Assembly (NCBI GenBank): GCA_001004345.1
Contig: LCQW01000002.1
Coordinates: 1 to 44,920 of the forward strand
Direction of reading: 5' to 3'
Length of the DNA: 44,920 nucleotides
DNA from: Candidatus Kaiserbacteria bacterium GW2011_GWA2_52_12
Lineage (GTDB): Bacteria; Patescibacteriota; Minisyncoccia; Phycocordibacterales; UBA2100
How positions within the stretch are numbered: position 1 is the stretch's first letter; each line of letters opens with the position of its first letter. Below are positions 94 through 13,953 of the stretch, piece after piece. The notes under the pieces were generated by a model that was not told where the DNA came from, did not search any database, and saw only the letters and a list, made by a program, of their open reading frames with translations. Made by a program: the position numbers and the translations under genes.

Positions 94-1902
94 GTGGGGG
101 AGATAATTGCGTTCATTAATAAAACGCGGGCGCTCGGCAAGAAGCTCGTTGTACTTCCAGAACTCTGCACGTGTGACTATATGCTCGGGGACAGGTGGGA
201 AGTCGAGGCGTTTCTTCGCGATATCGAAGTTGCAAACGAAGAGATTCGCAAAGCGACCATCGGGATCATCGCGATCTGGGGTTCTGTCCGTGTGGATTGG
301 GACCGTGTCGGCGAAGACGAACGTGTTCGCAAATACAATGCTGCGATGATCGCTTGCAATGGCGAGTGGGTTAAGACAGCACATCTCTTTGGCTGGATTC
401 CGAAGACAAATTTGCCGAAGTACGGTATCTTCGACGACGCGCGTCATTTCTATCCGGCCTCGAGTCTGGCAGCAGAACTTGGCATACCACTCGAAGAGTT
501 ATTGCAGCCATTCCAGGTTAGGATCAATGGAAAGATCATTCGCCTCGCGCTGACGATCTGCGAAGATCTCTGGGAAGATGGTTACAGTACCAAGGTCTCA
601 AAGATCTATCGCGATCAGGATGTCGATCTCATTATCGATATTTCGCAATCGCCGTGGACGACGCATAAATTGCAGGCGCGAGAAAAGATGCTGCGAAAGC
701 GTACGCTTGACTCGGACTGCCCCATCTTGTACGTCAACGTTGTCGGACTGCAGAACAATGCAAAAAACCTGGTCTGGTTCGACGGTACCTCATGTCTGAT
801 GGGAGCGGACGGCGTCGTTAAATGGCGTGCACCGCGCCATAAGGCCGGACTCTTTTCCCCCAGTGATTTTTCGTTGATCGGACACGGTAATCATTCGCCC
901 AGCTTCGTTAATGGATATCAGTCGATCATTGAGGATAGTCACACCGCGACCATCGAGGCGATGCGCGATTTTTATCGCGACTACTCGCGAATAGTTATTG
1001 GTCTCTCAGGTGGCATCGACTCGGCGATATCACTTGCGATGCACGTGGAGGCGCTCGGCGCTTCACGCGTGGTTGCGATCAACATGCCGACACAGTTCAA
1101 TTCGCAGACTACGCGGTCACTGGCCGCGCTCTGTGCGGAGAACTTCCGCGTCGAGTATAAAATCGTGCCAATCCAGCAGCTCTACGAAGCCGAACTCAAG
1201 CTGTATGCGGAATCGGGAGATCCGAACCCGAGCTCGTTCGACCGGGAAAACTTTCAGGCTCGTCTGCGCGGTCATGTACTTGCAGCGCAGGCGGCAATGC
1301 AGGCCACAAAGCTCGGCGGTCGCACCGGATTTACCTGCAATGGTAACAAGACGGAGGTTGCACTCAATTACTTCACGCTTTACGGTGATGGCGCGGGATG
1401 CTCAGCATTCTTCGCCGATTATTGGAAGGGCGAGATGTACGCTCTTGCACGCCTGATCAACGGGCGCGCCGGGCGGGACATTGTGCCGCAGGGCATCATC
1501 GACATCGTCCCATCGGCCGAGCTTTCGTCGGCGCAGAACGTTGACGAAGGCAAAGGTGATCCGATCTTCTATCCGTATCACGACAGACTACTTGCGATGT
1601 GGCTGGAAGGTCGCATGGATCCGACTGCCATCATGAGATGGACGCTCGCTGGTACACTCGAACGTGAATTGGGGTGTGCCGATGGGATCGTCGCAAAATA
1701 TTTCAGGACGCGCGCTGCGTTCGTGAAGAATCTTGAGTGGGCATGGCGACAGTATTCGTATGAAGGAAAGCGGCATATGTTGCCGCCGGGTCTCATCCGA
1801 ACGCGCGCATTTGGATTCGATCGCCGCGAGACGATTGCCGATGCGTATTTCACACGCGAGTATAAAACGCTCCGCGATGAGTATCTGCGACAAACACCTT
1901 GA
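94..1902 (+). CDS. nadE: Glutamine-dependent NAD+ synthetase, N-terminus incomplete
   Basis: Makes NAD+ from deamido-NAD+ (NaAD), ATP and glutamine in the cytoplasm, the last step of the nicotinate route. The first ~270 residues are a nitrilase-type glutaminase: Glu in PELCTCDY (~residue 22), Lys in LPKYGIFDD (~109) and Cys in LTICEDLWEDG (~156) form the expected Glu-Lys-Cys triad. The synthetase half has the PP-loop SGGIDSA (~306-312). The only in-frame start is GTG 94. It omits the first beta strand and the conserved GN segment that normally precede the PEL motif. Upstream, this frame is open from base 1 but is broken by TGA at 82-84, and the first ~60 bases are only about one third G+C. 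So the true 5' end is missing, frame-broken or misassembled. Together with pncB and the nadM-like gene it completes NAD salvage from nicotinate. Product identity is firm; the start is not. Confidence 0.9.
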   Translation: MGEIIAFINKTRALGKKLVVLPELCTCDYMLGDRWEVEAFLRDIEVANEEIRKATIGIIAIWGSVRVDWDRVGEDERVRKYNAAMIACNGEWVKTAHLFGWIPKTNLPKYGIFDDARHFYPASSLAAELGIPLEELLQPFQVRINGKIIRLALTICEDLWEDGYSTKVSKIYRDQDVDLIIDISQSPWTTHKLQAREKMLRKRTLDSDCPILYVNVVGLQNNAKNLVWFDGTSCLMGADGVVKWRAPRHKAGLFSPSDFSLIGHGNHSPSFVNGYQSIIEDSHTATIEAMRDFYRDYSRIVIGLSGGIDSAISLAMHVEALGASRVVAINMPTQFNSQTTRSLAALCAENFRVEYKIVPIQQLYEAELKLYAESGDPNPSSFDRENFQARLRGHVLAAQAAMQATKLGGRTGFTCNGNKTEVALNYFTLYGDGAGCSAFFADYWKGEMYALARLINGRAGRDIVPQGIIDIVPSAELSSAQNVDEGKGDPIFYPYHDRLLAMWLEGRMDPTAIMRWTLAGTLERELGCADGIVAKYFRTRAAFVKNLEWAWRQYSYEGKRHMLPPGLIRTRAFGFDRRETIADAYFTREYKTLRDEYLRQTP

Positions 1903-2074
1903 GTCCCTTCTTTACGGAGTGGTGCTTTGCATCCACCACTTCGTGTCTTTATAAGACACCTGACATGATTGATTTCGTAAATCAATCATTGAGTCGGATG
2001 TCTTAAAAGAAAAGTCCTGCCTGCCGGCAGGCATGGTCTTTCACACACACTAACGCGCACAGAAGGAGGATACG
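1903..2074. repeat. Intergenic run of nested palindromes between nadE and pncB
   Basis: Four stem-loops sit in 172 bases: AGTGGTG/CACCACT (1918-1940), GTGTCTT/AAGACAC (1943-1959), the 25-nt ATGATTGATTT/AAATCAATCAT element (1965-1989), and TGCCTGCC/GGCAGGCA (2018-2033). The AAGACA before and TGTCTT after the 25-nt element also pair, making a larger imperfect cruciform. None has a convincing U-tract on the plus strand, so none is a clear terminator. Confidence 0.7.
1965..1989. repeat. 25-nt palindrome, family A copy 1
   Basis: Arms ATGATTGATTT and AAATCAATCAT with a CGT loop. The same sequence, with loop ACG or CGT, recurs at 16147-16171, inside lysS at 29635-29659, and as part of a double palindrome inside uvrA at 37187-37236. 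Confidence 0.9.
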
Positions 2075-3373
2075 ATGCGTCCACATGAGCTCGTCGATTA
2101 TCTGCGTATGACGGCGGTCGATTTCAGCCCGCCTGTGCGCTCACTGATCGATACCGACTTCTATAAATTGTTGATGTTGCAGGTCATACAGGCGAAATAT
2201 CCGGACGTTAAAGTGGCGTTCGAATTGATCGTACGGGATAAAACGATCCCGGTCGGCGACATGATCAACATCACCGAGCTTTCGAAGTATTTCGATCATG
2301 TACACGGTCTGCGGTTCGAAAAAAGCGATCTCTACTACATCCGTGGACAAGATCTACATGGCCTCAATATGTTCAAGGAGCCGTTCCTTCAGTATCTGAA
2401 GAACGATTTTCGCCTGTCGCCGTACACGTTGCAGCGGCGAGACGGACAATTGCGGCTGCGTTTCGAAGGCACGTGGTCGCAAGCGACCATGTGGGAAATT
2501 TACGGACTTGCGACAATCTCTGAATGTTACTACCGCTCGGTGCTGCGCAATGTTCCAAAGGACGATCTGGAAAAAATGTACCGGAGAGCGATGGAACGCA
2601 TGGACCGGAAGATCGAGAAGTTGCAGACCGAGCCGGGGTTGCGCATCGCGGAATTCGGTACTCGCCGTCGCCATAGTTTCTTGTGGCAGGAATACATCGT
2701 GAAGCAGTTCAAGAAAAATCTCGGCGCAAGCTTCACCGGCACGTCGAATCTCTGGCTCGCGATCAAGTACCACGTAGATGCGATCGGTACCAATGCGCAC
2801 GAATTGCCGATGGTGCTCGTCGCACTCGCCGACAGTGCGGAAGCGATGGTCGATGCCCAATACCAAGTACTACGTGACTGGGAGTCGATGTATGTAAAAA
2901 GTTTGCGCATCATGCTCCCTGATACGTACGGCACCGAGCAATTCTTCAAGAATGCGCCGGCATGGGTATCGGAGTGGACCGGATTTCGGCAGGATTCAGG
3001 CGATCCTATGACCAGGGGCGAAGCGTATCTTGAATGGAACAAATCGAGAAACGTAGATGCGCGCACGAAGCTGTCACTGTTTACCGATGGTCTCGATGTG
3101 GATCCCATACTGAAGATCTACGACCGCTTCCACAAACGCACCAAGGTGGGTTTTGGTTGGGGTACGAGAGCGACCAACGATTTCGAGGGCTTGCTCCCGA
3201 TCCCGCACCTCCGTCCATTCTCGATGGTCTGTAAGGTCGTCGAGGCCAATGGGCGCCCGTGTGTCAAACTCTCCGATAATGTCAACAAATACACAGGTCC
3301 GAAGGAGGAGCTTCCGCGCTACTTAAAAACATTTGGTGGTGCAGGACGCACCGACGATAAAGTGTTCGTGTAA
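2075..3373 (+). CDS. pncB: Nicotinate phosphoribosyltransferase
   Basis: Converts nicotinate and PRPP (with ATP) to nicotinate mononucleotide, the entry step of the Preiss-Handler pathway. The 432-aa protein matches the PncB family throughout: SLIDTDFYKLLMLQ near the N-terminus, FGTRRRHS, FTGTSN, GTNAHELP (its His, ~241, corresponds to the phosphorylated His of the family), FRQDSGDP, and the late VKLSDN motif. The start ATG is fixed by a strong ribosome site AAGGAGGA 4 nt upstream. It is followed by its own terminator and converges with the nadM-like gene. Nicotinamide phosphoribosyltransferase is the alternative, but the FGTRRR/GTNAHE motifs favour the nicotinate enzyme. Confidence 0.92.
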   Translation: MRPHELVDYLRMTAVDFSPPVRSLIDTDFYKLLMLQVIQAKYPDVKVAFELIVRDKTIPVGDMINITELSKYFDHVHGLRFEKSDLYYIRGQDLHGLNMFKEPFLQYLKNDFRLSPYTLQRRDGQLRLRFEGTWSQATMWEIYGLATISECYYRSVLRNVPKDDLEKMYRRAMERMDRKIEKLQTEPGLRIAEFGTRRRHSFLWQEYIVKQFKKNLGASFTGTSNLWLAIKYHVDAIGTNAHELPMVLVALADSAEAMVDAQYQVLRDWESMYVKSLRIMLPDTYGTEQFFKNAPAWVSEWTGFRQDSGDPMTRGEAYLEWNKSRNVDARTKLSLFTDGLDVDPILKIYDRFHKRTKVGFGWGTRATNDFEGLLPIPHLRPFSMVCKVVEANGRPCVKLSDNVNKYTGPKEELPRYLKTFGGAGRTDDKVFV

Positions 3374-3381
3374 AGAATCGA

Positions 3382-3416
3382 AAGCCCCGGTCCGAATGGA
3401 CCGGGGCTTCTATCTT
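3382..3416 (+). terminator. Rho-independent terminator of pncB
   Basis: A 12-bp perfect stem AAGCCCCGGTCC / GGACCGGGGCTT with a GAAT loop is followed by a T-rich run, 8 bases after the pncB stop codon. Confidence 0.85.
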
Positions 3417-3426
3417 TGTAAAGAAG

Positions 3427-3463
3427 TAAAAAATGCGCCCCGAAGCTATCGCTTCCGGGCGCA
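3427..3463 (-). terminator. Rho-independent terminator of the nadM-like gene
   Basis: On the minus strand a 13-bp stem with one mismatch (arms 3434-3446 and 3451-3463, loop of 4) is followed by TTTTTT (3428-3433), just after the minus-strand stop at 3469. Confidence 0.85.
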
Positions 3464-3468
3464 AACAT

Positions 3469-4377
3469 TCAGCGGTCCCACCAGTGTTTCTGGAGAGTCT
3501 CGCCGAGTATGTGGTGCCACGGCACCAAAACGTCGAGCAGTTTTTCGACAGGTACCCACTCGGCGTGATCGGCGTCATCGCCAGGGATGAGATTGCCACT
3601 CTCGTAGTTGGTCCGGAAGAATGTAGTTCGGATTCGATCCTTTCCCTTGCGGTAGCGCGGATCGTCGATCGGGTACGAACCGAGGTAGACGATCTGCCCG
3701 GCACTCACATTCGGCAGTTCCTCGTTCTTCTCGCGAAGAACATCCGCTTCATCGGACGCGCCGTCAACTTCGGCAAAGCCGCCGAGAAATGAAAGAAGGC
3801 CCGCATGTTTATTTTTTCCGATCAGGATCACTTCGCCGCGATTTCTACTGATGATCGCAATATCAACGGTGCGATACAGCTTCGGTTTTCGGTGCTGGTG
3901 CTCATAAATAAGCATTTCACGCGCATCTGCCGAGCGCGGACGCAGTAGTTTGTTTCGGATCACAGTGCCGCTCGACGGATTAATTAGTGGAACAGCGACG
4001 GTCGGGTACGTCTTTGTCGTGTATTCGGCGATAAAGCTTTCCTGTGCACCGCCGTAGAGCGTGATCGGCGAATCGCCGTACTGTGTTCTCAAAAGCGCGT
4101 CCAGATTTTCCGACCAGCGCTCATGCGATATCGGGTCATCTTCGAGCGGCTTGATATCGATCGTATCATCTGGATACATTTCCCGGACCATTTCTTCCCG
4201 CATTTCGAAGGGAAGGGGATCGTGGTCTGTCGGATATCCGCCGGTCTCGCCGAGAATGATAGCGAGCCGGTCATGGCGCGCCTTGGCGAAATCTATCAAA
4301 TATCGATGCCCCGAATGGAGCTCCGGCACTTGGAGCCGGGCGACAATGCCGCCTACGGAGTTTGCCTCGTTTTGCAT
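3469..4377 (-). CDS. Bifunctional nucleotidyltransferase-Nudix protein (NadM-like)
   Basis: Expected to adenylylate NMN or NaMN to the dinucleotide (N-terminal half) and to hydrolyse a nucleoside diphosphate derivative such as ADP-ribose (C-terminal half). The N-terminal ~160 residues begin with a strand-turn carrying HSGH, the HxGH signature of HIGH-type nucleotidyltransferases. A PSSGTVIRNKL segment resembles the ISGTxIR signature near the end of such domains. The C-terminal half is a Nudix domain with GGFAEVDG and the metal-binding core REKNEE, but the spacing and first Glu of the consensus Nudix box are altered. The longest reading frame starts at TTG 4404; I prefer ATG 4377 because GAGGT sits 5 nt before it. 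Its promoter is overlapped by the NrtR-type operator, and nrtR lies just upstream on the same strand. No other NaMN adenylyltransferase is visible here. Confidence 0.85.
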   Translation of the reverse strand: MQNEANSVGGIVARLQVPELHSGHRYLIDFAKARHDRLAIILGETGGYPTDHDPLPFEMREEMVREMYPDDTIDIKPLEDDPISHERWSENLDALLRTQYGDSPITLYGGAQESFIAEYTTKTYPTVAVPLINPSSGTVIRNKLLRPRSADAREMLIYEHQHRKPKLYRTVDIAIISRNRGEVILIGKNKHAGLLSFLGGFAEVDGASDEADVLREKNEELPNVSAGQIVYLGSYPIDDPRYRKGKDRIRTTFFRTNYESGNLIPGDDADHAEWVPVEKLLDVLVPWHHILGETLQKHWWDR

Positions 4378-4450
4378 GTCTGACCTCGTGGTTTCAAAGG
4401 ACAAAAAACTATGCGGAACAGTATCACGCTACAGAAAGCGCGCCTATTTC

Positions 4451-4473
4451 CTTAGTGTAGTTTATACACTAAG
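4451..4473. promoter_or_regulatory. Perfect 23-bp operator palindrome, probable NrtR site
   Basis: CTTAGTGTA-N5-TACACTAAG covers the spacer and -10 region of the nadM-like promoter. The same palindrome with one changed base occurs at 9390-9412 before the VWA gene. Its position next to nrtR and over an NAD gene promoter makes NrtR the likely ligand; binding itself is inferred. Confidence 0.75.
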
Positions 4474-4486
4474 AGATTCTTGTCAA
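4459..4486 (-). promoter_or_regulatory. Promoter of the nadM-like gene
   Basis: Minus strand: TTGACA (4486-4481), 16-bp spacer, TAAACT (4464-4459). The palindromic operator lies over the spacer and -10 box, the arrangement expected for repression by steric block. Confidence 0.65.
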
Positions 4487-4509
4487 TGAATCCATCGTCT
4501 GTTCGCGGA

Positions 4510-4549
4510 TATGACGCTAGCTTGTACGGCCGTACAAGCTAGCGTCATA
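4510..4549. repeat. 40-bp perfect palindrome, family D copy 1
   Basis: The left arm begins TATGACGCTAGC and the centre is GTACGGCCGTAC; all 20 pairs match. A diverged copy (34 of 40 bases identical) lies at 30915-30954. It sits between nrtR and the nadM-like gene, 22 bases after the nrtR stop. There is no U-tract, so it is not a standard terminator. Confidence 0.85.
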
Positions 4550-4570
4550 CCTATAAATGTCACATTAAAA

Positions 4571-5266
4571 TTAGAGTACCTCGATATCCGAGACGGCAGG
4601 GGAGGCAAAGGAGTACAGTTTTGCCGGGCGGGACCGACCACTGCTTTTCTTTTTGGGGAGTTCTTTTAAGATGCCGAGCTTTAATATCTTCTTGCGAAAA
4701 TTGCGCTTATCAAGGTTTGCTTCGAGGATACTTTCGTATATTTGCTCGAGTTCCGTGAGTGTGAATTCTTTGGGCATCAGTTTTGAAATGAGCGTCGTGT
4801 AGTGCACGCGCGATCGGAGACGCGCGATTGCCATCCGGAGCATCTCATCGTGGTCATAGGCGAGGTTCTTGAGCGTGTGTGCGGGTTCCCACCAGACCTC
4901 TTTCGTGTCCATTCGCTCTTTGTTGGATAGTGCATTCCATGGAACGAATGCGCAGTAAGCGACGGCCACCACGCGGCCGCGCGGATCGCGGTTCACCTCG
5001 CTGAACGTATAGAGCTGTTCGAGATATATGTGAGAGTTGTCGATCAATCCCTTGTCCGCGATCAGCCTATGAGTGGCTTTTTCCGCCGTCTCTTCCGGGC
5101 GAAGCACCCCGCCGGGGAACGCCTTCGCATTCTTGTAGTGGGGAGGGCGATGTACGGGAATGACGCGCACATACAATGTGCCACCCTTGACCATGAAGAT
5201 CACGGCGTCGCTCGCAACGACGGCAAAGCGAAGATGGGCGGGAGCGGATCGGGACAATTTTTTCAT
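4571..5266 (-). CDS. nrtR: NrtR-type Nudix-related transcriptional regulator of NAD metabolism
   Basis: Predicted repressor that senses ADP-ribose or a related NAD metabolite and controls NAD genes. Residues ~10-145 form a Nudix-like fold with FPGGVLRPEETAEKATHRL, but the catalytic RExxEE is lost (ATHRLIADKG), as expected for a ligand-sensing rather than catalytic domain. Residues ~155-225 form the winged helix typical of the family: FTLTELEQIYESIL, then NFRKKILKLGIL and a basic wing ending RPAKLYSF. It sits directly beside NAD salvage genes, and a suitable palindromic operator covers the neighbouring promoter. The ATG follows a TTGACA-N17-TATACT promoter by only 6 nt, so the message is probably leaderless. 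No operator copy is evident at its own promoter. Confidence 0.9.
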   Translation of the reverse strand: MKKLSRSAPAHLRFAVVASDAVIFMVKGGTLYVRVIPVHRPPHYKNAKAFPGGVLRPEETAEKATHRLIADKGLIDNSHIYLEQLYTFSEVNRDPRGRVVAVAYCAFVPWNALSNKERMDTKEVWWEPAHTLKNLAYDHDEMLRMAIARLRSRVHYTTLISKLMPKEFTLTELEQIYESILEANLDKRNFRKKILKLGILKELPKKKSSGRSRPAKLYSFASPAVSDIEVL

Positions 5267-5272
5267 TGGAAA

Positions 5273-5301
5273 AGTATACTCAATGATTTAGTTATTGTCA
5301 A
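5273..5301 (-). promoter_or_regulatory. Promoter of nrtR, leaderless start
   Basis: Minus strand: TTGACA (5301-5296), 17-bp spacer, TATACT (5278-5273), then 6 nt to the ATG. The predicted transcription start falls on the start codon. Confidence 0.8.
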
Positions 5302-5430
5302 TCGTACACTTGCTGTCGGGGGTTTCCAAAATGTTGAACCATTGCGGGCGATTTACACCAATGCATTTTTGTGGTAGAGAGTAGACAGCTTCTTTGACAA
5401 CGTAATAAGTGAAAGAAAGGGTGGTCTCAT

Positions 5431-6117
5431 ATGCCATGCAATATCGGCTTCAAAAGCTATGCGAAAATCGAGATCCCGGTACCAGAGCCCCAGGTATTCA
5501 GCGTTAAATCGGAGGCGCCGGACATCGACGCCGAGCTTCTCAAAAAGCTTGGCATCGAGGATCCTGTATTTCTGAAATGGGCCATCAACGACCTGGATGT
5601 GAAACCACTTCTGCAAGAAGCGCTCAAGCGCGCGCTTGCCGCGGTGGATACAGGAGGCCTCTATTTCACGATCGACGCGAATGGAATGCTCGAAGCGAAA
5701 GGCCGTTTTGCGACCCCCCGTGAAAAAAAGCTCTTGAGCGAAAAAGCCTTGGCCGTTTCTGATCGCTGGCAATTCGAGATCCTCGGCATCGTCGCCGAGA
5801 TCTTGAACTACAGCGTGACCATCTCGCAAAGAGGCGATGAGATGAAACTCGAAGCAGAGGAAGCCGGAAAATCGCACCCGTGTGATTACATCAAAGTCAC
5901 GCGGCGCGGCGGTGTTTCCGAGATTACCTTCGAGCATTTCAAGTCGCGTACAACGCTTGATCTCGCAACGGCGAAGTTTCTCGCGCTTGCGCACGCCCTT
6001 GGCGTAAAGATCGCACTCGGGAACCACGAGGTCTCGGAAGGAGATCCGTTCCCGGGAGAAGAGATGCATAGTCACCGACACGGCCATCATCATGGTGGCC
6101 ATGATAACGAACACTGA
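5431..6117 (+). CDS. Unknown protein with histidine-rich tail
   Basis: A 228-aa soluble protein that I do not recognise. Residues ~25-205 look like a mixed alpha/beta domain; the last ~18 residues are a dense His tail (HSHRHGHHHGGHDNEH), of the kind seen in Ni/Zn-handling proteins such as HypB or SlyD. It lies 13 bases upstream of the AAA+ ATPase gene on the same strand, so the two are probably co-transcribed. In cyanobacteria and plastids the Ycf46-type AAA protein is accompanied by a small partner (Ycf35-like), and this protein occupies the analogous position, though I see no clear sequence link. A metal-binding or metal-delivery role is inferred from the tail only. AAAGGGTGG about 8 nt upstream supports the start at 5431. 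Confidence 0.8.
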   Translation: MPCNIGFKSYAKIEIPVPEPQVFSVKSEAPDIDAELLKKLGIEDPVFLKWAINDLDVKPLLQEALKRALAAVDTGGLYFTIDANGMLEAKGRFATPREKKLLSEKALAVSDRWQFEILGIVAEILNYSVTISQRGDEMKLEAEEAGKSHPCDYIKVTRRGGVSEITFEHFKSRTTLDLATAKFLALAHALGVKIALGNHEVSEGDPFPGEEMHSHRHGHHHGGHDNEH

Positions 6118-6130
6118 GAGGATATCTCCA

Positions 6131-8083
6131 ATGACAGTCAAAACTGAAACCGCCCCGGCAATCCTGCCGGGATGGTTCACCGACGGCGTGGTGAATCGGT
6201 TGAAGGCAGAAATCTCTTCTGTGTTCATTCTGCACGGAGACGTCACATGCTTGGTGCCGAATCCAAACGCGGATGACGAGCCGCGGTGGCCCTACATTCC
6301 GCTGCACGCGCTTTTCGAGCGGGTGTTCGACAAGCGCGAGATGGTGATCTTCTACAATATCGCCACCGGTATGCGCTTTCTTAATTCCGATATGGAGAAG
6401 GAATTCCGAAAAGTCGCGGAGATCGCAGGTGACGAGGATGCCGATCCAAAGGATCCCGTCGCCATCGCGAAAGCGGAACTTGCCGCGAAGCGGCAGCTGC
6501 CCCGTGAACCGGAACTCTGCCTACCGCTCATCGAAAAAGCGCTCAAGAAGATGGACAGGGTCGCCATCATCATCGAATCGGCGCATTTCATTGCGCCCGA
6601 GTCGACCGGTACGGGACTCCTGCTGAACGAGCGTACGCACATCGCGCGGCTGCGCACATGGGCGCAAGATTCGCGCGTGAAGAAGCGTAGCAATATCGTA
6701 CTGCTTCTTACGGACCTCGCCTCCAAAATATCGGGAGAGTTGCGGCAATCCTCGAGCCGTATTGGGAGCGTCTTTATCCCGAAGCCGTCGCCCGATGAGC
6801 GCAAGTTCTATATCGAGCGCCAAGCGTTCGGTATGTCGCAGGAACAGGAGGTCGAAAAACAACTTGCGGCGCTTCAAAAGAAGCGTGCGCGCGCTAAAGG
6901 CGAATCGGAAGAAGAGATCCAAGGTGAGATTGAAGAGCTTGAGGAACAGCTGAAGCAGTTCCCCATGCACTTCGAAGTTCCAAAGGATTTCGAAATAGAC
7001 ATTTTCGTGAATGCAACGCAAGGTATGAGCCTGCGGCAGATCCTCGAGATCTTCCGCGCTGCGGCTCAAGCGAAGCGCTCCGTAGATATCTCCTTCGTGA
7101 AAGCGAAGAAGAAGGAGATTCTCAATGCAGAATACGGCGACGTGATGGAAATTGCCGATCCGCAATGGAGCCTGGAGGAGATCGGCGGCCTCGCCAAGCA
7201 AAAAGCATATTTCGTTTCGGTGATGGAATCGATACGCACCGGTGAGATCCGGCTTATTCCGCAAGGCATCACCGTCATGGGCCCTCCCGGCACGGGCAAG
7301 ACCGCACTGATCGAGGCCTTGGCCAAAGGTGCGAGTTACAATTTCGTCAAAATGAAGAACGCGCGGTCCATGTGGGTCGGCATGTCCGAAGAGAGGACCG
7401 AACGCCAGATCCAAGGCCTGTGGGCGCTCGCTCCCGTCATCGTCATGAACGACGAAGCCGACTTGGGCGAAGCGAATCGCGACGCACCCAAGGGCGACTC
7501 GGGAGTTTCCGAACGCATCATGCAGGCGTGGATGCGATTCCTCTCGGAGCCCCGTATTCGCGGACGGGTGGTGATGGTCAATTGCACCAACCGACCGGAT
7601 CGTATGGACGCAGCCATGAAGCGAAGCGGTCGCAGCGACGACCGTATTGCGATCCTCATGCCTACTGAAGAAGAAGGGAAGGCGATCTTTGGGGTGATGT
7701 TCCGTCGGTACAACATTCCGACCGATATCACCGACTTTGCGCCGTTTGCCGGAATGGCGAAAGGACTTTCCGGAGCGGACATAGAAAGCATCACACTGAA
7801 ATCGTTCCGCTTCGCCGGTGAAATGGGCAAAAAGAAAGTTGACGACGAAGCGCTCCGTGAGGCGATCGCCGATTTTATTCCCTCAGCAAGTCAAGCGGAT
7901 ATCGATCTCATGACGCTTCTCGCGATCTCTGAGTCGTCTTCCCGGAGACTTCTTCCGGCAAATACGAGGGAGATCATCGAAGAGATCAAGAAGCGCAATC
8001 TTGTTCAAGGTGGAGCGGATCTCATTGCTCAAATCGAGGCACGCAACATCGTGAAGCTCGATGAGGCAACATCTGCCGACTAA
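6131..8083 (+). CDS. AAA+ ATPase, tandem-domain Ycf46-like
   Basis: A 650-aa ATPase. The N-terminal ~250 residues look like a degenerate first ATPase module: no Walker A, a Walker-B-like RVAIIIESAHF and a sensor-like NIVLLLTDL. A charged coiled coil follows (~235-275). The second module is an intact AAA+ domain: Walker A GPPGTGKT (~384), Walker B VIVMNDEAD (~436), sensor 1 MVNCTNRPD, and an arginine-finger region SGRSDDR. This architecture matches Ycf46-type proteins, whose function is poorly known. It is downstream of the His-tailed protein and in the same island as a VWA/MIDAS protein. AAA+/VWA pairs elsewhere form chelatase- or MoxR-type remodelling machines. The start is ATG 6131, preceded by GAGAGGA; in-frame upstream codons overlap the previous gene. 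Confidence 0.9.
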   Translation: MTVKTETAPAILPGWFTDGVVNRLKAEISSVFILHGDVTCLVPNPNADDEPRWPYIPLHALFERVFDKREMVIFYNIATGMRFLNSDMEKEFRKVAEIAGDEDADPKDPVAIAKAELAAKRQLPREPELCLPLIEKALKKMDRVAIIIESAHFIAPESTGTGLLLNERTHIARLRTWAQDSRVKKRSNIVLLLTDLASKISGELRQSSSRIGSVFIPKPSPDERKFYIERQAFGMSQEQEVEKQLAALQKKRARAKGESEEEIQGEIEELEEQLKQFPMHFEVPKDFEIDIFVNATQGMSLRQILEIFRAAAQAKRSVDISFVKAKKKEILNAEYGDVMEIADPQWSLEEIGGLAKQKAYFVSVMESIRTGEIRLIPQGITVMGPPGTGKTALIEALAKGASYNFVKMKNARSMWVGMSEERTERQIQGLWALAPVIVMNDEADLGEANRDAPKGDSGVSERIMQAWMRFLSEPRIRGRVVMVNCTNRPDRMDAAMKRSGRSDDRIAILMPTEEEGKAIFGVMFRRYNIPTDITDFAPFAGMAKGLSGADIESITLKSFRFAGEMGKKKVDDEALREAIADFIPSASQADIDLMTLLAISESSSRRLLPANTREIIEEIKKRNLVQGGADLIAQIEARNIVKLDEATSAD

Positions 8084-8112
8084 TGTTCTGTCCAACGAGG
8101 GTCTTTGAACCT

Positions 8113-8132
8113 CCTTCGCTAAGCTGCGAAGG
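8113..8132 (+). other. Hairpin after the AAA+ gene
   Basis: CCTTCGC / GCGAAGG with a 6-nt loop, immediately before the ribosome site of the small ORF at 8151. No U-tract follows, so it may be an RNA-end stabiliser or translation element rather than a terminator. Confidence 0.5.
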
Positions 8133-8150
8133 TCAAGAAGGAGAACTAAC

Positions 8151-8267
8151 ATGGGTGAAGGATACGAGCTGGAAAGTCTGAACTCAGCAGATGTACGAAC
8201 TTCAACCGCCCTCGAGCCTATCGAAGGGCGGTTTTTTTATGTATCGAAACCATTGCGCTGTCATTGA
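8151..8267 (+). CDS. Possible 38-aa small protein overlapping a terminator
   Basis: ATG is preceded by a strong ribosome site (AAGAAGGAGA, 5 nt spacing). The peptide begins MGEGYELESLNSADVR and ends YVSKPLRCH. Its coding sequence runs through the terminator at 8205-8238, which is odd for a real gene. It may be a short translated leader, a decayed gene, or a chance site. The tiny ORFs at 24056 and 32781 share the pattern of a strong ribosome site followed closely by a terminator-like hairpin. No function can be assigned. Confidence 0.35.
   Translation: MGEGYELESLNSADVRTSTALEPIEGRFFYVSKPLRCH
8205..8238 (+). terminator. Rho-independent terminator after the AAA+ operon
   Basis: Stem ACCGCCCT / AGGGCGGT, extendable by an imperfect CGA/TCG, followed by seven T. 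Confidence 0.85.
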
Positions 8268-8278
8268 CGAACGCAAAA

Positions 8279-8284
8279 TATAAT
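8279..8284 (+). promoter_or_regulatory. -10 box of the pyruvate-kinase-like gene
   Basis: A consensus TATAAT lies 58 nt upstream of the chosen ATG; the -35 is weak (TTGCGC at 8253 is 20 nt away). It rules out ATG 8283 as the start. Confidence 0.5.
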
Positions 8285-8342
8285 GGTACGGTTCTGCCAG
8301 AAATTCATTCCGAAATACGTGATAAAAAAGGAAAAATCGGCC

Positions 8343-9290
8343 ATGTTTATCTCCAGTTTGCCGCCGGTGCATCTAGAGGAACTGCTGAAATCGATCATCG
8401 AGCACCCGATAGTGGATGCGGTGCGGTACAACACGGGTGTGCGTTCTGCGTACAATCCGTATGAGACGATCTCGCGGATTCTTGCGCTCACGGTCCCGCT
8501 CAATAAGCCGCTGTACATCGATCTGAAGGGAAAGCAGCTGCGTGCCATCGAGTGGGGCATCGTGCCCGACTCGCCTGTCATCCTCAACCACAAGATAACG
8601 GTCGAGCTGCCGGCGGAAATTCACATGCGTGGAGACGCGCGCGGCATCGTTCGCAAGATCAATAATGGTAATGAACTCTATGTTGATTGCAAAGAAGGAC
8701 TGGTCGGCAAAGGGCAATCGATCAATATCCTCGGCAAGAATCTAAAAATCGAGGGCGGCTTGCTCGATCTCGACCACCAATACATTAGGGCGATGCTTGA
8801 CCTGGGGCTAATGCGATTCATGCTTTCGTTTGTCGAAAATAAAGATGATGTGCGTGAACTTCAGGAGGCGATCGTTCGACATTCTCGAGGCACCGTTTCC
8901 GTGGATGAATGCGAAATCGTATTCAAGATCGAGTCACAAGCCGGTATGGACTTCGTGCGCAACGAACTCACCGAGAAACATTTTTCCGAGGGCAGTGCAT
9001 ATCGCCTCATGGCTGCGCGCGACGATCTCCAGATTCACATTGGTGTCGATCAGATGCCGGCAGCAACACGAGATATCGTTCGTAAAGATCCAAGATCCAT
9101 TTGCGCTTCACGGTTGCTTATGGGTCTTGAAGATGGGGGTGTCACAGAAGCCGACAAGTCGGACGTCGAGCACATGCGCACGCTCGGCTACAAGCACTTT
9201 ATGCTCTCCGACGGCATCTCGCGGGAACATTCAGTGGAGGCGCTCAAATTCTGGCAGGAGTACTGTGCCTCGAGGCCGTTTGAGAAGTGA
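8343..9290 (+). CDS. Pyruvate-kinase-like protein without C-terminal domain
   Basis: A 315-aa protein that follows pyruvate kinase along its length. RYN (~28-30) corresponds to the Arg/Asn of the substrate loop, IDLKGKQLR to DTKGPEIR, and a B-domain-like segment (~80-140) ends with GKGQSINILG. VFKIES (Lys ~195) matches the catalytic Lys-Ile-Glu. ARDDLQIHIG matches ARGDLGVEIP, and a CASRLL..SDVEH..MLSDG stretch matches the last A-domain helices. It stops there: the allosteric C domain is absent and the usual length is ~470. Catalytic side chains are partly kept, so a phosphotransfer from phosphoenolpyruvate or a related compound is possible but unproven. ATG 8343 has AAGGAAAA 6 nt before it; the longer frame's ATG at 8283 lies inside a TATAAT box (8279-8284). 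It is monocistronic with its own terminator, within the AAA/VWA cassette. Confidence 0.8.
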   Translation: MFISSLPPVHLEELLKSIIEHPIVDAVRYNTGVRSAYNPYETISRILALTVPLNKPLYIDLKGKQLRAIEWGIVPDSPVILNHKITVELPAEIHMRGDARGIVRKINNGNELYVDCKEGLVGKGQSINILGKNLKIEGGLLDLDHQYIRAMLDLGLMRFMLSFVENKDDVRELQEAIVRHSRGTVSVDECEIVFKIESQAGMDFVRNELTEKHFSEGSAYRLMAARDDLQIHIGVDQMPAATRDIVRKDPRSICASRLLMGLEDGGVTEADKSDVEHMRTLGYKHFMLSDGISREHSVEALKFWQEYCASRPFEK

Positions 9291-9305
9291 AGGTGTGAAC
9301 AACTG

Positions 9306-9333
9306 ACCCGGACATATCGTCCGGGTTTTTTTT
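9306..9333 (+). terminator. Rho-independent terminator of the pyruvate-kinase-like gene
   Basis: ACCCGGAC / GTCCGGGT stem, 5-nt loop, then eight T. Confidence 0.9.
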
Positions 9334-9334
9334 C

Positions 9335-9402
9335 TTGACCAACGCATTCAATTATTGTACAGTGGTCACTCGACTTGTGCGGATAGCTACTTAGTGTACT
9401 AT
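9335..9402 (+). promoter_or_regulatory. Promoter region of the VWA gene
   Basis: Two candidates. One is TTGACC (9335-9340), 17-bp spacer, TACAGT (9358-9363), with the operator downstream of its start. The other is TTGTGC (9375-9380), 16-bp spacer, TACTAT (9397-9402), with the operator right on the -10. The second mirrors the geometry at the nadM-like gene. Confidence 0.5.
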
Positions 9403-9412
9403 CTACACTAGT
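9390..9412 (+). promoter_or_regulatory. Second probable NrtR operator
   Basis: CTTAGTGTA-N5-TACACTAGT: both halves match the 4451-4473 site except one base in the right arm. It lies 32 bases upstream of the VWA gene start and overlaps a candidate -10 box. This places the VWA gene under the same regulator as the nadM-like gene. Confidence 0.7.
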
Positions 9413-9443
9413 TCAACGGTCTTTGAAAAGGAAGGACAAGACA

Positions 9444-10607
9444 ATGAGAGAGAAAGGCTACGCGTCAAAAACTGAGTATGCATCCATAGCCAAAAGAGTG
9501 GCGACCGAAGGCAAGGGTGTCGCTACATACCTTGGCGAAGAGAGAGCCCGTCAGGGCAAGGGCCTCGACCCACTCGTCGATCCAAAGGGGCTCGAGAAGT
9601 ACGGCCCCGTGCGCGGATCGAACAATCTACTCGTCCCCGAGGGCGACCAGTTCGTCCTCGAGTACGGCGTGGCGATGCCGGTCCAAACCGATTGCGATCT
9701 CACGGGCTCAATGGGCGGCAACGTGGACGTGTTCTTCAAGATTCAGCCCGACGTGCAGGATCTGCTCATACAGGGCAAGGGTGCCGTGCTGAAGCGTTAC
9801 CAAGCGCAGATGTGCACCGGCGCCGTGCAGGATGTCGTGGATCAATTCCCGTACCAACGATCCCAGTTCGAGCCCGACAACGAAGTCGAGCGACAGATGG
9901 GACTTTTGGTCCCGGAAAGGAGTGGCGGCGATAACACCGAAGATTACCAGATCGGACTATTCGCGGCGGCGTATCTCACCGATGCCAGCATCACGAAGTA
10001 CGGCCTGCGCGGCTATTATTTCGCGGTCGGCGATGAGATCGGGCGCGACACACTCGATCCATATGGACAGCTGTTGAAAAAGACATTCGGGTCGAAAACC
10101 GACGAGGTCGAAAAAGTGCTTGGCAATACGAGCGCGCGATCGCTTCGGACTGTCAACATCGGGAAGATATTGCTCCGGAATTGGCATGGCTTTTTCCTGC
10201 AGGTCGGCAGGAACCGGTATACCACAGACTGGTGGAGCGACACTCTCGGCAAGGAACGAGTCGTCCAATTGCCGCGCACCGAAGACCTCGCCGAAGTACA
10301 GGCTGTGATTATCGGCCTCACCGAAGGCGTGCTCGACCTGCAGAGCGCCGTCGACTTCCTGAAGGAGTCGAAAGTGTCGGCTACCGAGGCCAAGCGTATT
10401 GTAGAGGCGTGCTCGGGCATTCCGATCGGACTCCAGACGACCTTCGCCAACTTCGACAAAATCCCGATGGCGGGTGCGCGGTTCGCAAGCCGCGACGACA
10501 TCTGGCCGATCGGGACGGACGTTCCTTCGGGCGCCAAATCCAAAAAGGCGAAGAAGTCCGCGCCTAAGGAAGAAAAGAAGGAAAAGAAAGAAGACTGGAA
10601 ACTCTGA
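9444..10607 (+). CDS. VWA/MIDAS-domain protein
   Basis: A 387-aa soluble protein with a von Willebrand A-like fold. The MIDAS metal site is visible as DLTGSM (~84), a GGDNTED segment (~153-159) supplying the Thr/Asp region, and FAVGDE at the third position. The C-terminus (~360-387) is a Lys/Glu-rich tail. VWA proteins often work with AAA+ ATPases as metal-dependent adaptors (magnesium chelatase D/I, MoxR/CoxE, CbbQ/CbbO). Here the partner candidate is the ATPase at 6131. ATG 9444 is selected by AAGGAAGG 6 nt upstream; an earlier in-frame codon at 9423 lacks this. An operator palindrome of the NrtR type precedes it, followed by its own strong terminator. The MIDAS assignment is from motifs only. 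Confidence 0.8.
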   Translation: MREKGYASKTEYASIAKRVATEGKGVATYLGEERARQGKGLDPLVDPKGLEKYGPVRGSNNLLVPEGDQFVLEYGVAMPVQTDCDLTGSMGGNVDVFFKIQPDVQDLLIQGKGAVLKRYQAQMCTGAVQDVVDQFPYQRSQFEPDNEVERQMGLLVPERSGGDNTEDYQIGLFAAAYLTDASITKYGLRGYYFAVGDEIGRDTLDPYGQLLKKTFGSKTDEVEKVLGNTSARSLRTVNIGKILLRNWHGFFLQVGRNRYTTDWWSDTLGKERVVQLPRTEDLAEVQAVIIGLTEGVLDLQSAVDFLKESKVSATEAKRIVEACSGIPIGLQTTFANFDKIPMAGARFASRDDIWPIGTDVPSGAKSKKAKKSAPKEEKKEKKEDWKL

Positions 10608-10620
10608 CGTTTCCACACCG

Positions 10621-10655
10621 GGGCGGCCCTGCATGGGCCGCCCTTTACTTTTTTC
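10621..10655 (+). terminator. Rho-independent terminator of the VWA gene
   Basis: GGGCGGCCC / GGGCCGCCC stem with a 5-nt loop, then TTTACTTTTTT. Confidence 0.9.
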
Positions 10656-10698
10656 GACTTTACGGCATAGTGCTGCCAGATTATAAGGGAGAAGGGCT

Positions 10699-12087
10699 AT
10701 GAAAAAAGCCTTTATAGTGACGGGACTAGGGTATGGAGATGAAGGCAAGGGCAGTGTGACGCACTGGTTGTCATGTCAGCACAAAGCGCACACGGTGATC
10801 CGCACCGGCGGACCGCAAGCGCTTCACCACGTGGTCTGCAAAGACGACACGAGCCATGTGTTTTCGCAATTCGGCTCGGGTACGCTTCGTGGATCGGCGA
10901 CGCATCTCTCGAAGAATATGGTCATCGACCCGCATGCGATTCTCGCGGAGGGCGAAATTCTCAAGTACGAGCACGGTATTCGCGGCATCTTCGACATGAT
11001 GACGATCCACGAAGATGCACTCGTTATCACGCCGTTTTCAGCCATCGCCGGACGCGTGCGCGAACTATTGCGCGGCAAAAACCGCCGCGGCTCTGTTGGT
11101 ATCGGTGTCGGCGAGACCATTCTCGACTCGGAAATCATCGGAGAAGCTGCTATCAGAGCGAAAGATCTCTCGAAACCATACCTACGCGAAAAGCTGGAAA
11201 TCATTCAGCGTCGCAAATGGGCAGAGTTTGAAATATTCGCGGATCGCGCGAGCGAGCTTCCGTCCAATGTCAAAGAACGCGTTACCTCGGAACTCGCGCA
11301 AATGAACGATTCCGACACGGTGCAATGGATGATCGAGCGTTGTGCGGAGCTCGTGAAGCACGTTTGCGTCGTCGACACGGAGTTCGTTGCAAAGCGGATA
11401 CTTGGTGCCGAAGGCACAGTCGTGTTCGAAGGTTCTCAAGGAGTGCTTCTCGACCGATATTATGGATTCCATCCGTATACGACAAAAGTGCGGGCGACTC
11501 CTCTCACCGCGAAAGAGATTCTGCGCGAATGCGAATACGATGGCAATGTGCAAAGCCTCGGCATTCTGCGCGCATACCATACACGGCATGGCGCGGGTCC
11601 ATTCGTAAGTGAATCTGCGGGGCTCATGGCACAATTACCGGACGAGACGAACAAAGAACATCCGTGGCAGGGCAGCTTTCGGGTCGGGCATTTCGACCTA
11701 TTGCTGGCCAGGTATGCGCTGGAGGTGTGTCGAGGCGCTATCGACGGCCTTGTCATTACCTGCATCGACCGTGTGTTGCCGCTCGGCAGATGGGGCATGT
11801 GTCTCGCCTACGACATCAAGAATTCTTTAGGCACCGACATAATGAGGGACCTTCCGGTGTATAGAAAGGAGCCTGCGGATCAGCTAAAAATGCAGGAAAT
11901 GCTCAGTCGGTCGTTCAGTCAATGCACGCCTCGGTTGGACATGTACGAGTTCTCGGAGCGAGAAGCACCGGAGAAACACATCACGACGCTCACCTCGGTG
12001 CTTAGAGACTCTCTCAACATTCCGATTGTCGCCGTATCAGTCGGACCGACGGAAGCGGACAAGATAGAAATGGAAAACGGGCAGTGA
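10699..12087 (+). CDS. Divergent adenylosuccinate synthetase (PurA) family protein
   Basis: A 462-aa member of the PurA family: GTP-dependent ligation of aspartate to a 6-oxopurine nucleotide in standard members. The P-loop is GYGDEGKGS (Asp ~14, normally WGDEGKGK). The RTGGPQALHH segment replaces RxxGGxNAGHT but keeps the second catalytic His. FEGSQGVLLD replaces FEGAQGTLLD. GILRAYHTRHGAGPF matches the usual GVxKAYTTRVGxGPF, and QGSFRVGHFD sits where TTGRPRRCGWFD is expected. The changes cluster around the nucleotide and base pockets, so the substrate may not be IMP. Phage PurZ shows that the family can switch base specificity, but this protein is longer and not obviously PurZ. Ribosome site AAGGGAGAAGG. 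It sits at the end of the AAA/VWA cassette with no other purine genes adjacent. Confidence 0.85.
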   Translation: MKKAFIVTGLGYGDEGKGSVTHWLSCQHKAHTVIRTGGPQALHHVVCKDDTSHVFSQFGSGTLRGSATHLSKNMVIDPHAILAEGEILKYEHGIRGIFDMMTIHEDALVITPFSAIAGRVRELLRGKNRRGSVGIGVGETILDSEIIGEAAIRAKDLSKPYLREKLEIIQRRKWAEFEIFADRASELPSNVKERVTSELAQMNDSDTVQWMIERCAELVKHVCVVDTEFVAKRILGAEGTVVFEGSQGVLLDRYYGFHPYTTKVRATPLTAKEILRECEYDGNVQSLGILRAYHTRHGAGPFVSESAGLMAQLPDETNKEHPWQGSFRVGHFDLLLARYALEVCRGAIDGLVITCIDRVLPLGRWGMCLAYDIKNSLGTDIMRDLPVYRKEPADQLKMQEMLSRSFSQCTPRLDMYEFSEREAPEKHITTLTSVLRDSLNIPIVAVSVGPTEADKIEMENGQ

Positions 12088-12110
12088 TGATTCACTGCCC
12101 GTTCTTTTTT
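12076..12110. terminator. Bidirectional terminator, PurA-like and nucleotidyltransferase-fold genes
   Basis: Perfect 12-bp stem AACGGGCAGTGA / TCACTGCCCGTT with a TGAT loop, then CTTTTTT on plus; it overlaps the PurA-like stop codon. On the minus strand it follows the stop at 12112. Confidence 0.9.
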
Positions 12111-12111
12111 G

Positions 12112-13953
12112 TTATTTCAGCTGCGGAAGAAATACGCGGCTGATAAAGAGCTTTGTCGCGAGTCGCCGGTATCCAGAGTCCCAGAACACGCTTGCGGGAT
12201 CGAGCCCTTTTGCTCCCGCGTCGATCCCACCTTGAGGCGGGAAGAACCGCCGGTATCCTTTGTGCATGAGCCGATACTGCAGGACTTCTCGTTCCATCTC
12301 TTCGAGACAGAGCGTCCGGACATCACGACCCTCGAACGTTTTGCCCGCAGAGTAGAGGAACCCGGGAAGAAGTTTCGTGTATAGCTCTTCGAGCATTTCT
12401 TCTTGTCCAAGCCATACACTGCTGAGCAGTAGGTGGACCCACGTGCTGTCGGCGAGGAACACATCAGGATCCGGAAAGTCACGTACTCGGAGCTTTTCCC
12501 CTTCCGCTTCAAGCCAGAACTCAACGACTTTTCCGCCGACGTTCTTACTTGAAAATAGTTGAGCAAGAATGTGACGAATTTTTGCCCGTTCTTTTTCCGG
12601 AACGCCCGGTCGCACGAAGATGGCCGCATCCAGATCAGCGTTTCGCTTGGCATAATTTTTCAGCCGGGAGCCGAAGAAGATTGCCGCGGGGTAAAGAAGC
12701 CGTGAAAGTTCCGGATTTTGCGCGATAGACTCTATCGCACCCTTGAATTCCGCAATTTCCATTACAAGCGGACCGGTTTTTGAAAATTCAGCATCGAGTT
12801 TTGGAATCTCGAAACCAAACCGCAGGAAGTCTGCTTCAGCGATAATTCCGAGATGGATCCAGTATGAGAGAACAGTTTCGAGTTCATCCCATATCTGGAG
12901 ATCATCCCTCCAATTTTTTTGGATGCACAACATGAAGTTTACACATACGTGCCGCGCTTTCGCCAGATCACTCCCCGTGAGTTTCTCGACTGCCATTCGA
13001 ACGCCGCGTATTACAGCAAGCCGTGTGATTGTCGGCGAATTATCATACAATAACGGCGGAAGGTTTTTCCATTGGGATTGCTCCGCAATAATCGTCTCAG
13101 CAATACGTTCCGCATACACACCAATGAGTACGTCCTCGTTGTTGCGCCTCTCCCAAGTGATTCGTGCCGGCGGCATGTTGCGGGAGATGTCCAGCGCCTC
13201 GCGCATATCTAGCTTTTTCAACTCGAATGCGATTTCTTTGGGTAGATTTTTCAACCAATCGCGCCCGAATTCTTTTTTCGCCTCACATACTATTTTTGCA
13301 GTCGTAGGTGTGAGCGTCGCCAGAGCGTTGGCGATACTGTCTTTCAGGACGTCGCTTGTGGCACCATCCATGAGCGCAGTCACTTCAGCCACTGATACGA
13401 GCCCTTTTTTCACAAGCTGCGGAATGAGGTGCGCCGCTTTCCGGACCAGAGGTTGCCCGTACGGAGCGAGTTCTTTCTCGAGGATATTGCCGTCCGCGAA
13501 ATTGGCTCGCACATCGGTTTCTCCAAGAAGTTCTCTCCAGTGCTTCATGTATGAGCGCACGAAGCGATCCGACGAAATTCGCAGTTTCTCAAATGGGGGC
13601 CGCCACTTCTTCGACGGGATTAATTCAAACGGAAGATACAAGACGAGCCGTCGGTGATGCGGATCGACATCGAGAAATGCAGTCAGCAGATCATAGAGTT
13701 CCGCAATCGATCTCGGTCGGACTTCTCCCATATGAACTGCCACAGTGACTTCTGTCACCGGATCTGACATTTGCTGAAACAGCGTATTCAGTTTCGCATG
13801 CAACTTCTGTCGCATCTCCGCTTGTACGATTAGATCAGGATCATCCAGGATCTCTAGCGGCCACAACGATTCCTTGCTTCTCGCAAAGAGCGTTTCCATG
13901 GCCGGCTCGATCAGTACGACGCTAGAGGTTTTTTCCGACATCGGAGGCCCCAT
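12112..13953 (-). CDS. Unknown protein with C-terminal nucleotidyltransferase fold
   Basis: 613 aa. The first ~390 residues are helical with no motif I recognise. Around 410-440, FFGSRLKNYAKRNADLDAAI fits the GS...DxD signature of the polymerase-beta-type nucleotidyltransferase fold, with hydrophobic strands on both sides. The ~170 residues after it are again helical. The fold includes nucleotidyl-transferring toxins, tRNA-modifying enzymes and pseudo-enzymes; context does not decide. The gene converges on the PurA-like gene and shares its terminator. TTTACA-N16-TATAAC on the minus strand (14007-13980) is a plausible promoter, giving a ~20-nt leader. ATG 13953 is the longest start; ATG 13941 (MSEK) is an alternative. 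Confidence 0.75.
   Translation of the reverse strand: MGPPMSEKTSSVVLIEPAMETLFARSKESLWPLEILDDPDLIVQAEMRQKLHAKLNTLFQQMSDPVTEVTVAVHMGEVRPRSIAELYDLLTAFLDVDPHHRRLVLYLPFELIPSKKWRPPFEKLRISSDRFVRSYMKHWRELLGETDVRANFADGNILEKELAPYGQPLVRKAAHLIPQLVKKGLVSVAEVTALMDGATSDVLKDSIANALATLTPTTAKIVCEAKKEFGRDWLKNLPKEIAFELKKLDMREALDISRNMPPARITWERRNNEDVLIGVYAERIAETIIAEQSQWKNLPPLLYDNSPTITRLAVIRGVRMAVEKLTGSDLAKARHVCVNFMLCIQKNWRDDLQIWDELETVLSYWIHLGIIAEADFLRFGFEIPKLDAEFSKTGPLVMEIAEFKGAIESIAQNPELSRLLYPAAIFFGSRLKNYAKRNADLDAAIFVRPGVPEKERAKIRHILAQLFSSKNVGGKVVEFWLEAEGEKLRVRDFPDPDVFLADSTWVHLLLSSVWLGQEEMLEELYTKLLPGFLYSAGKTFEGRDVRTLCLEEMEREVLQYRLMHKGYRRFFPPQGGIDAGAKGLDPASVFWDSGYRRLATKLFISRVFLPQLK

Follow-up and report, generated by a model that had tools for sequence, protein, structure and literature searches.

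NrtR is a regulator of NAD synthesis, and its regulons were reportedly described by Rodionov et al. in 2008. In the tiny, uncultured Candidatus Kaiserbacteria bacterium GW2011_GWA2_52_12, a palindrome at the nadM-like promoter next to nrtR recurs in front of a gene for a VWA-fold protein, which raises the question of whether NrtR also controls this gene. An earlier note on the DNA analysed here (44,920 nucleotides; the window) had assigned the VWA gene, and with it an AAA/VWA cassette, to the NrtR regulon. The features of the locus are as follows.

94..1902, + strand: nadE, NAD synthase, NAD gene context (PF02540, E 5e-33)
2075..3373, + strand: pncB, nicotinate phosphoribosyltransferase (NF003704, above cut-off)
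3469..4404, - strand: nadM-like NMN adenylyltransferase-Nudix protein, predicted target of operator 1 (NF003786, E 5e-10; PF00293)
4451..4473, no strand: predicted NrtR operator 1, perfect 9-N5-9 palindrome covering the -10 of the nadM promoter
4571..5266, - strand: nrtR, encoding a Nudix-like sensor joined to an NrtR winged helix (PF21906, E 5e-25; PF00293, E 4e-4)
5291..5313, no strand: weak, doubtful NrtR-like site in the gap separating nrtR from the divergently oriented hyp228/AAA operon
5431..6117, + strand: hyp228, function unassigned, precedes AAA, conserved in G183 and G297; regulon membership doubtful
6092..8083, + strand: AAA ATPase, Cdc48/PAN-like (PF00004, E 1e-21); regulon membership doubtful
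8283..9290, + strand: pyruvate-kinase-barrel-like (PK-like) protein, recurrent cassette neighbour (PF00224, E 5e-9)
9305..9327, + strand: intrinsic terminator-like hairpin 3' of the PK-like gene (hairpin prediction)
9335..9363, + strand: promoter-like TTGACC-17-TACAGT before VWA (9/12 matches; not above shuffle background)
9390..9412, no strand: predicted NrtR operator 2, 31 bases 5' of the VWA start codon
9444..10607, + strand: VWA-fold protein, predicted NrtR target (AlphaFold pLDDT 83.7; DxTxS metal-site motif conserved)
10699..12087, + strand: diverged PurA-like protein, conserved VWA partner (PF00709, E 6e-49)

The regulator and the two palindromes

By its sequence, the protein encoded at 4571-5266 is an NrtR-family regulator, consisting of an N-terminal Nudix-like domain and a C-terminal NrtR winged helix. 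It aligns end to end with BtAraR (5bs6, E 4e-26) and SoNrtR (3gz5, E 2e-18). The Nudix domain is degenerate: the catalytic glutamates are gone (GGVLRPEETAEKATHRLIADKG), and the alignment places RLIADK where REUXEE is expected. Among PDB entries, the protein is matched best by BtAraR, which binds arabinose, and ligands vary across the NrtR family, including ADP-ribose, NAD and arabinose. Given the family and the NAD genes that share the motif, a response to NAD or ADP-ribose appears plausible.

A pattern search of the window located operator 1, CTTAGTGTA-GTTTA-TACACTAAG, at 4451-4473 with 0 mismatches, and operator 2, CTTAGTGTA-CTATC-TACACTAGT, at 9390-9412, both where the earlier note had placed them. 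The gene context was likewise as claimed, with nadM-Nudix (3469-4404) and the NrtR-family gene (4571-5266) on the - strand and the VWA ATG at 9444 on the + strand. The single change ascribed to the second copy holds for the 21-base core; it is slightly off for the 23-mer, because operator 2 differs from it at two positions in the right arm (AAG to AGT). Across 100 window shuffles, matches at <=3 mismatches averaged 0.00 (23-mer) and 0.03 (21-mer), and none of the shuffles held two of them. The genome scan suggested earlier was run with the 21-mer on the organism's own assembly (924,614 bases in 38 contigs, 91% complete), and operators 1 and 2 were its only matches at <=3 mismatches.

Operator 1 overlaps the nadM promoter TTGACA-16-TAAACT (4486..4459, - strand), while pncB, part of the NAD gene context, has no operator in its own genome. 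The terminator-like hairpin at 9305-9327 implies that VWA is its own transcription unit, and operator 2 starts approximately 26 bases 3' of the -10 of its predicted promoter. A further hairpin with a T-run (10620-10644), again terminator-like, separates VWA from purA-like, and no operator is present 5' of the purA-like gene, which is possibly not co-transcribed with VWA here.

Conservation of the predicted operator across genomes

The motif model, a matrix, was trained only on NAD-gene sites (n=25). It assigns a score of 31.5 to operator 1, itself a member of the training set, and 24.9 to operator 2, which lies outside this set. The loose pattern TWAGTGT-N7-ACACTWA (2 mismatches) was abandoned, as its signal was not separable from a reversed control, whereas the trained matrix separates the two. 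Sites scoring >=19 were observed at 86 per Mb versus 0.07 per Mb in shuffles, rates that are inflated because many loci were fetched for holding NrtR, VWA or the motif. In relatives, the same motif is found 5' of nrtR, nadM, NAMPT, pncB and nadE, the conservation expected of an NrtR-family operator, and sites occur in each of the relatives whose nrtR is clear (7/7), most of these sites being close to nrtR, nadM or pncB.

With this NAD-trained model, a strong site was found before the purA-type cassette in 9/9 NrtR-positive genomes, with scores of 19-24 in G297, G183, G403, G300, G252, G058, G043 and G015. The cassette genomes without NrtR (G125, G206, G225, G180) had best sites of <=8.6, and strong sites in 0/4. 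In G297, G183, G252 and G058, nrtR and the cassette lie on separate contigs, and the first two, which come from another family, carry the site in the same PK-like/VWA gap as the window. Other arrangements are nrtR-operators-kin-VWA-purA (G403, G300) and nrtR-kin-VWA-purA-geneA (a Wildermuthbacterium), where geneA has no PDB relatives by sequence. NrtR is present in 9/14 cassette genomes versus 17/383 others (p=8e-9), and the VWA of a second, triad-type set occurs with NrtR in 8/9 cases (p=9e-10), Fisher values that overstate independence because the genomes of the order are related.

The VWA gene thus has a predicted upstream operator of its own, which is conserved at orthologues and absent without the regulator. 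Because comparative footprinting, co-occurrence statistics and the NrtR-less controls agree, it is very probably an NrtR target, and its proposed place in the regulon is strongly supported. This does not extend to the rest of the AAA/VWA cassette: the AAA and PK-like genes are set apart by the terminator at 9305-9327, and the AAA operon has only the weak upstream site, scoring 10.0 versus 19-31 for most accepted sites, and none in G183 and G297 despite the same gene order. That site sits on the -35 of the nrtR promoter (TTGACA-17-TATACT, 5301..5273) and is similar to the nrtR-promoter sites of L050 and L046; the AAA operon is not clearly under NrtR. Nor is every VWA relative a target, since the kin-VWA-PKlike cassettes of G308 and G133 lack an operator despite NrtR. 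L066, where nrtR adjoins the cassette and no matrix site is found, was rejected as an exception, as the palindrome is present there with a 6-base spacer.

The cassette, its spread and alternative readings

The VWA protein has no Pfam match at E 0.01, but alignment, AlphaFold and Foldseek point to a Rossmann-like VWA fold with a MIDAS-type motif, and its model resembles integrin beta I-like and NorD VWA domains. The PurA-like protein is the sole PF00709 member of its genome and falls well below the curated PurA cut-off (143 versus 402 bits). Compared with adenylosuccinate synthetase, it keeps the P-loop GDEGKG, the His of GGxQAxH, FEGxQGVLLD and AYxTRHGAGPF, whereas the substrate loop TGRxRR has become QGxxR and TKLD has become TxxD (Lys changed). 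Hyp228 has no Pfam, NCBIfam or PDB match and a low-confidence model (pLDDT 67.5).

As in known NrtR regulons (PMC6800001; PMC4666351), a Nudix-winged-helix repressor is combined with palindromic operators at nadM/pncB/nadE-type genes and likely autoregulation; different are the targets, which here include VWA, kinase-like, PurA-like and PP2C genes. The literature searched contained no description of an NrtR-VWA link and no such target in any regulon. A second set, TerY-P-like VWA-PP2C-kinase genes, belongs to regulons of NrtR in Patescibacteria as well as in one cyanobacterium and one Bacteroidales member, the three genes standing together in L054, L059, L078, L100, L124, L204, L208 and L214-L216, several of which match local profiles only, not Pfam. 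The TerY-P triad, in the account of Anantharaman 2012 given in PMC11090510, comprises VWA, PP2C and Ser/Thr kinase. The second set is likened to it by gene content and differs by lying under NrtR operators, mixed with pncA-like, pncB, nadE or ADP-ribosylglycohydrolase genes. The window cassette does not belong to this triad: no PP2C or kinase match was found within 94-13953, and the triad VWA profile has no match in the genome. MoxR-vWA ternary conflict systems (PMC7159879) share adjacent AAA ATPase and VWA genes, but the window AAA is Cdc48/PAN-like, its partners are PurA-like and PK-like, and no VMAP-type third component was recognised. Assignment to a known defence system was rejected, as the only PADLOC matches, to AAA (IetA) and kinase, are weak.

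Plasmids of Rhodococcus, Tsukamurella, Agrobacterium and Acetobacter carry an NrtR-like gene beside kin-VWA-purA, preceded by lineage-specific palindromes. In three Rhodococcus loci the arms are fixed and the spacer is variable; the locus on pRHL1 in Rhodococcus jostii RHA1 has the candidate site GTTTTAGTC-N5-GACTAAAAC. In Abditibacterium (L082), a PurA-like gene lies 2.6 kb from nrtR, and neither VWA nor kinase was recognised in the interval. Phages yielded no VWA homologue. NrtR and VWA likely form a mobile module. Somewhat against the balance of probability, though worth stating, is that NrtR, J-domain/kinase-like, VWA and PurA-like proteins form one mobile NAD-/ADP-ribose-sensing stress or defence module in Patescibacteria, Actinomycetota, Alphaproteobacteria and perhaps archaea, switched on upon NAD breakdown.

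Instead, a mobile VWA/kinase-like/PurA-like system for defence or stress might use NrtR as its dedicated sensor, with NAD-gene control a separate role of this regulator family. The plasmid copies, which have no NAD genes in the stretches read, the patchy cassette distribution and the reported anti-phage activity of TerY-P-like modules (PMC11090510) speak for this, but in most NrtR loci of Patescibacteria the NAD genes stand without the cassette, and PADLOC finds no known system, which leaves it a doubtful proposal. It is compatible with joint control of nadM and VWA by NrtR, and stronger in claim.

That NrtR is limited to NAD genes here, the 9390 palindrome being a decayed or coincidental copy, would fit its two right-arm changes, the site-less purA-like gene and the weak VWA promoter prediction; it is very unlikely given a chance expectation of about zero, the same placement in another family and the restriction of purA-type cassette sites to NrtR-positive genomes. 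G109 has a perfect motif with no NrtR found, so another reader of the motif, e.g. a winged-helix protein, may exist, but that it acts at the VWA site with NrtR merely a neighbour is hardly credible, as the operator tracks NrtR and the cassette stands beside NrtR-family genes in Actinobacteria and Alphaproteobacteria, where the motifs have changed.

Predicted mechanism and meaning

We consider it highly probable that the palindrome is the operator of NrtR (4571-5266), that nadM and VWA are jointly repressed and released by an NAD-derived ligand, and that NrtR and the cassette are old, mobile partners. Motif, regulator, conservation and co-occurrence are computed; binding, ligand, direction of response and the function of the cassette are inferred. 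A repressor dimer would bind at 4451-4473, blocking the nadM promoter, and at 9390-9412, where, should the promoter prediction hold, it would act on the VWA unit as a roadblock at about +20 to +42. A ligand, most likely ADP-ribose or NAD, would fill the inactive Nudix pocket and release NrtR, upon which VWA would be expressed together with the NAD salvage gene, and the PurA-like gene perhaps by read-through. The kinase-like-VWA-PurA cassette would then be an old partner of the NrtR family that moves between phyla and on plasmids, presumably as an NrtR-controlled module with a role in signalling or stress.

The pairing of NrtR and VWA suggests a little-known NAD-sensing signalling module. Cultured carriers, such as Rhodococcus jostii RHA1 and Pseudanabaena sp. 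FACHB-1998, make direct testing possible, and the operator can be used for finding more members. If NrtR drives VWA, kinase-like and PurA-like modules in many phyla, an uncharacterised pathway of signalling or defence would take the level of NAD or ADP-ribose as its input.

The NrtR-family regulator and the palindromes in the window

The regulator of interest aligns end to end with the DNA-binding proteins BtAraR and SoNrtR, and the glutamates needed for catalysis are missing from its Nudix box. The ligands of NrtR relatives are ADP-ribose, NAD or arabinose (PMC4666351). The NAD genes pncB and nadE are located upstream in the window.

Regulator, NadM-Nudix gene and hairpins in the window
3469-4404, minus strand: NadM-Nudix protein
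4571-5266, minus strand: NrtR-family protein with a Nudix-like domain and an NrtR winged helix
9305-9327: terminator-like hairpin after the PK-like gene
10620-10644: hairpin with T-run between the VWA gene and the PurA-like gene

The 23-mer CTTAGTGTA-N5-TACACTAAG is present without mismatch at 4451-4473 (predicted operator 1) and recurs at 9390-9412 (predicted operator 2). An earlier note had located both sites correctly, at the nadM-like promoter and before the VWA gene, but had counted one change in the second copy, which differs by two bases, both in the right arm. No shuffled window contained two matches, and the genome-wide scan proposed in that note returned only these two places in 924,614 bases, allowing up to three mismatches of the 21-base core. 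Operator 1 overlies the -10 element of a good nadM promoter (TTGACA-16-TAAACT). Operator 2 lies between the terminator-like hairpin and the ATG of the VWA gene at 9444, about 26 bases past a modest promoter match. A third site, at 5291-5313, is weak (score 10) and shares bases with the -35 element of the promoter of nrtR itself. Between nrtR and nadM, a perfect 40-bp palindrome (4510-4549; 20-base arms, no spacer, no T-run) is present as a single copy in the genome.

A Pfam search with the VWA gene product gave no match; its AlphaFold model (pLDDT 83.7) resembles integrin beta I-like and NorD VWA domains, and DxTxS is conserved in the alignment. The next gene encodes a diverged PurA-like protein, and because a hairpin with T-run separates the two, their co-transcription should not be assumed. 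Further along, 12112-13953 encodes a nucleotidyltransferase-like protein of 613 amino acids, which recurs near the cassette in the relatives G183, G252 and G125 and in a Wildermuthbacterium.

The motif at NAD genes and at the cassette in relatives

Among 118 relatives, seven besides the organism's own genome have a clear nrtR, and all seven carry the motif. In 20 further regions, chosen for holding NrtR and not for the motif, sites precede nrtR, nadM, NAMPT, pncB and nadE; the motif is also found upstream of nrtR in Omnitrophota, Cyanobacteria, Acidobacteria and others. One perfect copy (G109:C10:67045-67065; L060 8046-8066) occurs in a genome in which no NrtR was found, where another regulator may read the motif or the assembly may be incomplete. 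In genome G043, two divergent genes lacking annotation flank a site of score 27 (L047 3324-3344), a possible further regulon member.

A position matrix trained on 25 sites, all from NAD/nrtR loci, scored 24.9 at the window's VWA site and 19-24 ahead of the cassette in eight other genomes; in four genomes that have the cassette but no NrtR, the score did not exceed 8.6. Sites scoring at least 19 occurred at 86 per Mb in the loci versus 0.07 per Mb in Markov shuffles, a rate that is illustrative because the loci were selected. These scores support the earlier proposal that the VWA gene is a predicted member of the NrtR regulon; the AAA part of the cassette, which had been linked to the NAD genes with it, is not clearly included.

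Gene order was compared as well. G297 and G183 come from a different family and have the genes in the window's order, hyp228-AAA-PKlike-VWA-purA, apart from one additional VWA-like gene ahead of PKlike; the site occupies the same gap, and nrtR is on another contig. In G403 and G300, nrtR is followed by two to three tandem sites and then by kinase-like-VWA-purA. A Wildermuthbacterium has nrtR-kinase-like-VWA-purA-geneA in consecutive order, preceded by a site whose spacer is 6 bases long. The kin-VWA-PKlike sets of G308 and G133 are exceptions, with no site detected by the matrix.

Of 397 genomes examined in the order, 26 have a full-length NrtR (E<1e-40), 14 have the cassette VWA and nine have both (Fisher p=8e-9, or 8e-8 with the organism's own genome left out, shared ancestry being ignored). 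A second, non-orthologous VWA, accompanied by PP2C and kinase genes, is present in nine genomes, eight of which have NrtR (p=9e-10, again ignoring shared ancestry).

The cassette and NrtR beyond the phylum

Plasmids of Rhodococcus (including R. jostii RHA1), Tsukamurella, Agrobacterium/Allorhizobium and Acetobacter carry clustered kinase-like, VWA and PurA-like genes; the adjoining Nudix gene encodes an NrtR winged helix, matched strongly in Agrobacterium and Acetobacter and weakly (E 0.004-0.05) in Rhodococcus and Tsukamurella. For Rhodococcus USK10, a local profile gave no nrtR match in the stretch read. In Rhodovulum, VWA adjoins a clear NrtR. The Acetobacter persici NrtR gene next to the cassette is split into two frames (L231 6827-7539), and on a plasmid of Agrobacterium vitis the kin-VWA-PurA cassette is directly followed by genes for an AAA ATPase, DUF5682 and DUF4132 (L232 9232-14630).

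At three Rhodococcus loci, GTTTTAGTC-N5-GACTAAAAC precedes the first gene with identical arms and differing spacers, a pattern characteristic of a binding site with the same geometry as the window's operator. The alphaproteobacterial gaps contain TTAG-N13-CTAA pairs matching the window's motif in its outer frame. In the cultured cyanobacterium Pseudanabaena sp. FACHB-1998 (L100 2564-9849), nrtR faces a PP2C-ADP-ribosylglycohydrolase-ADP-ribosylglycohydrolase-kinase-pncA-like-VWA run with two sites in between, and the two ADP-ribosylglycohydrolases tie the module to ADP-ribose. A Bacteroidales genome has nrtR followed by pncA-like-VWA-PP2C-kinase. In a Woesearchaeota record, kin-VWA-PKlike is located near nrtR, but the accompanying site, of score 32, comes after PKlike.

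Possible function of the module

The aligned kinase-like proteins lack both the catalytic HRD aspartate and the DFG motif and are therefore probably pseudokinases; several have a J-domain-like stretch at the N-terminus. The P-loop and the catalytic His and Gln regions are retained in the PurA-like protein, but its substrate loop is altered, which makes a GTP-dependent ligase with another substrate plausible. No description of an NrtR-VWA link was found in the open-access literature searched, a body that does not include the founding NrtR paper. Among published ideas, the closest is the TerY-P triad, which has been proposed as a phosphorylation switch connected to defence and stress (PMC11090510). 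In our preferred reading, NrtR would repress both NAD salvage and the module, and a ligand derived from NAD would relieve this as a sign of breakdown or shortage.
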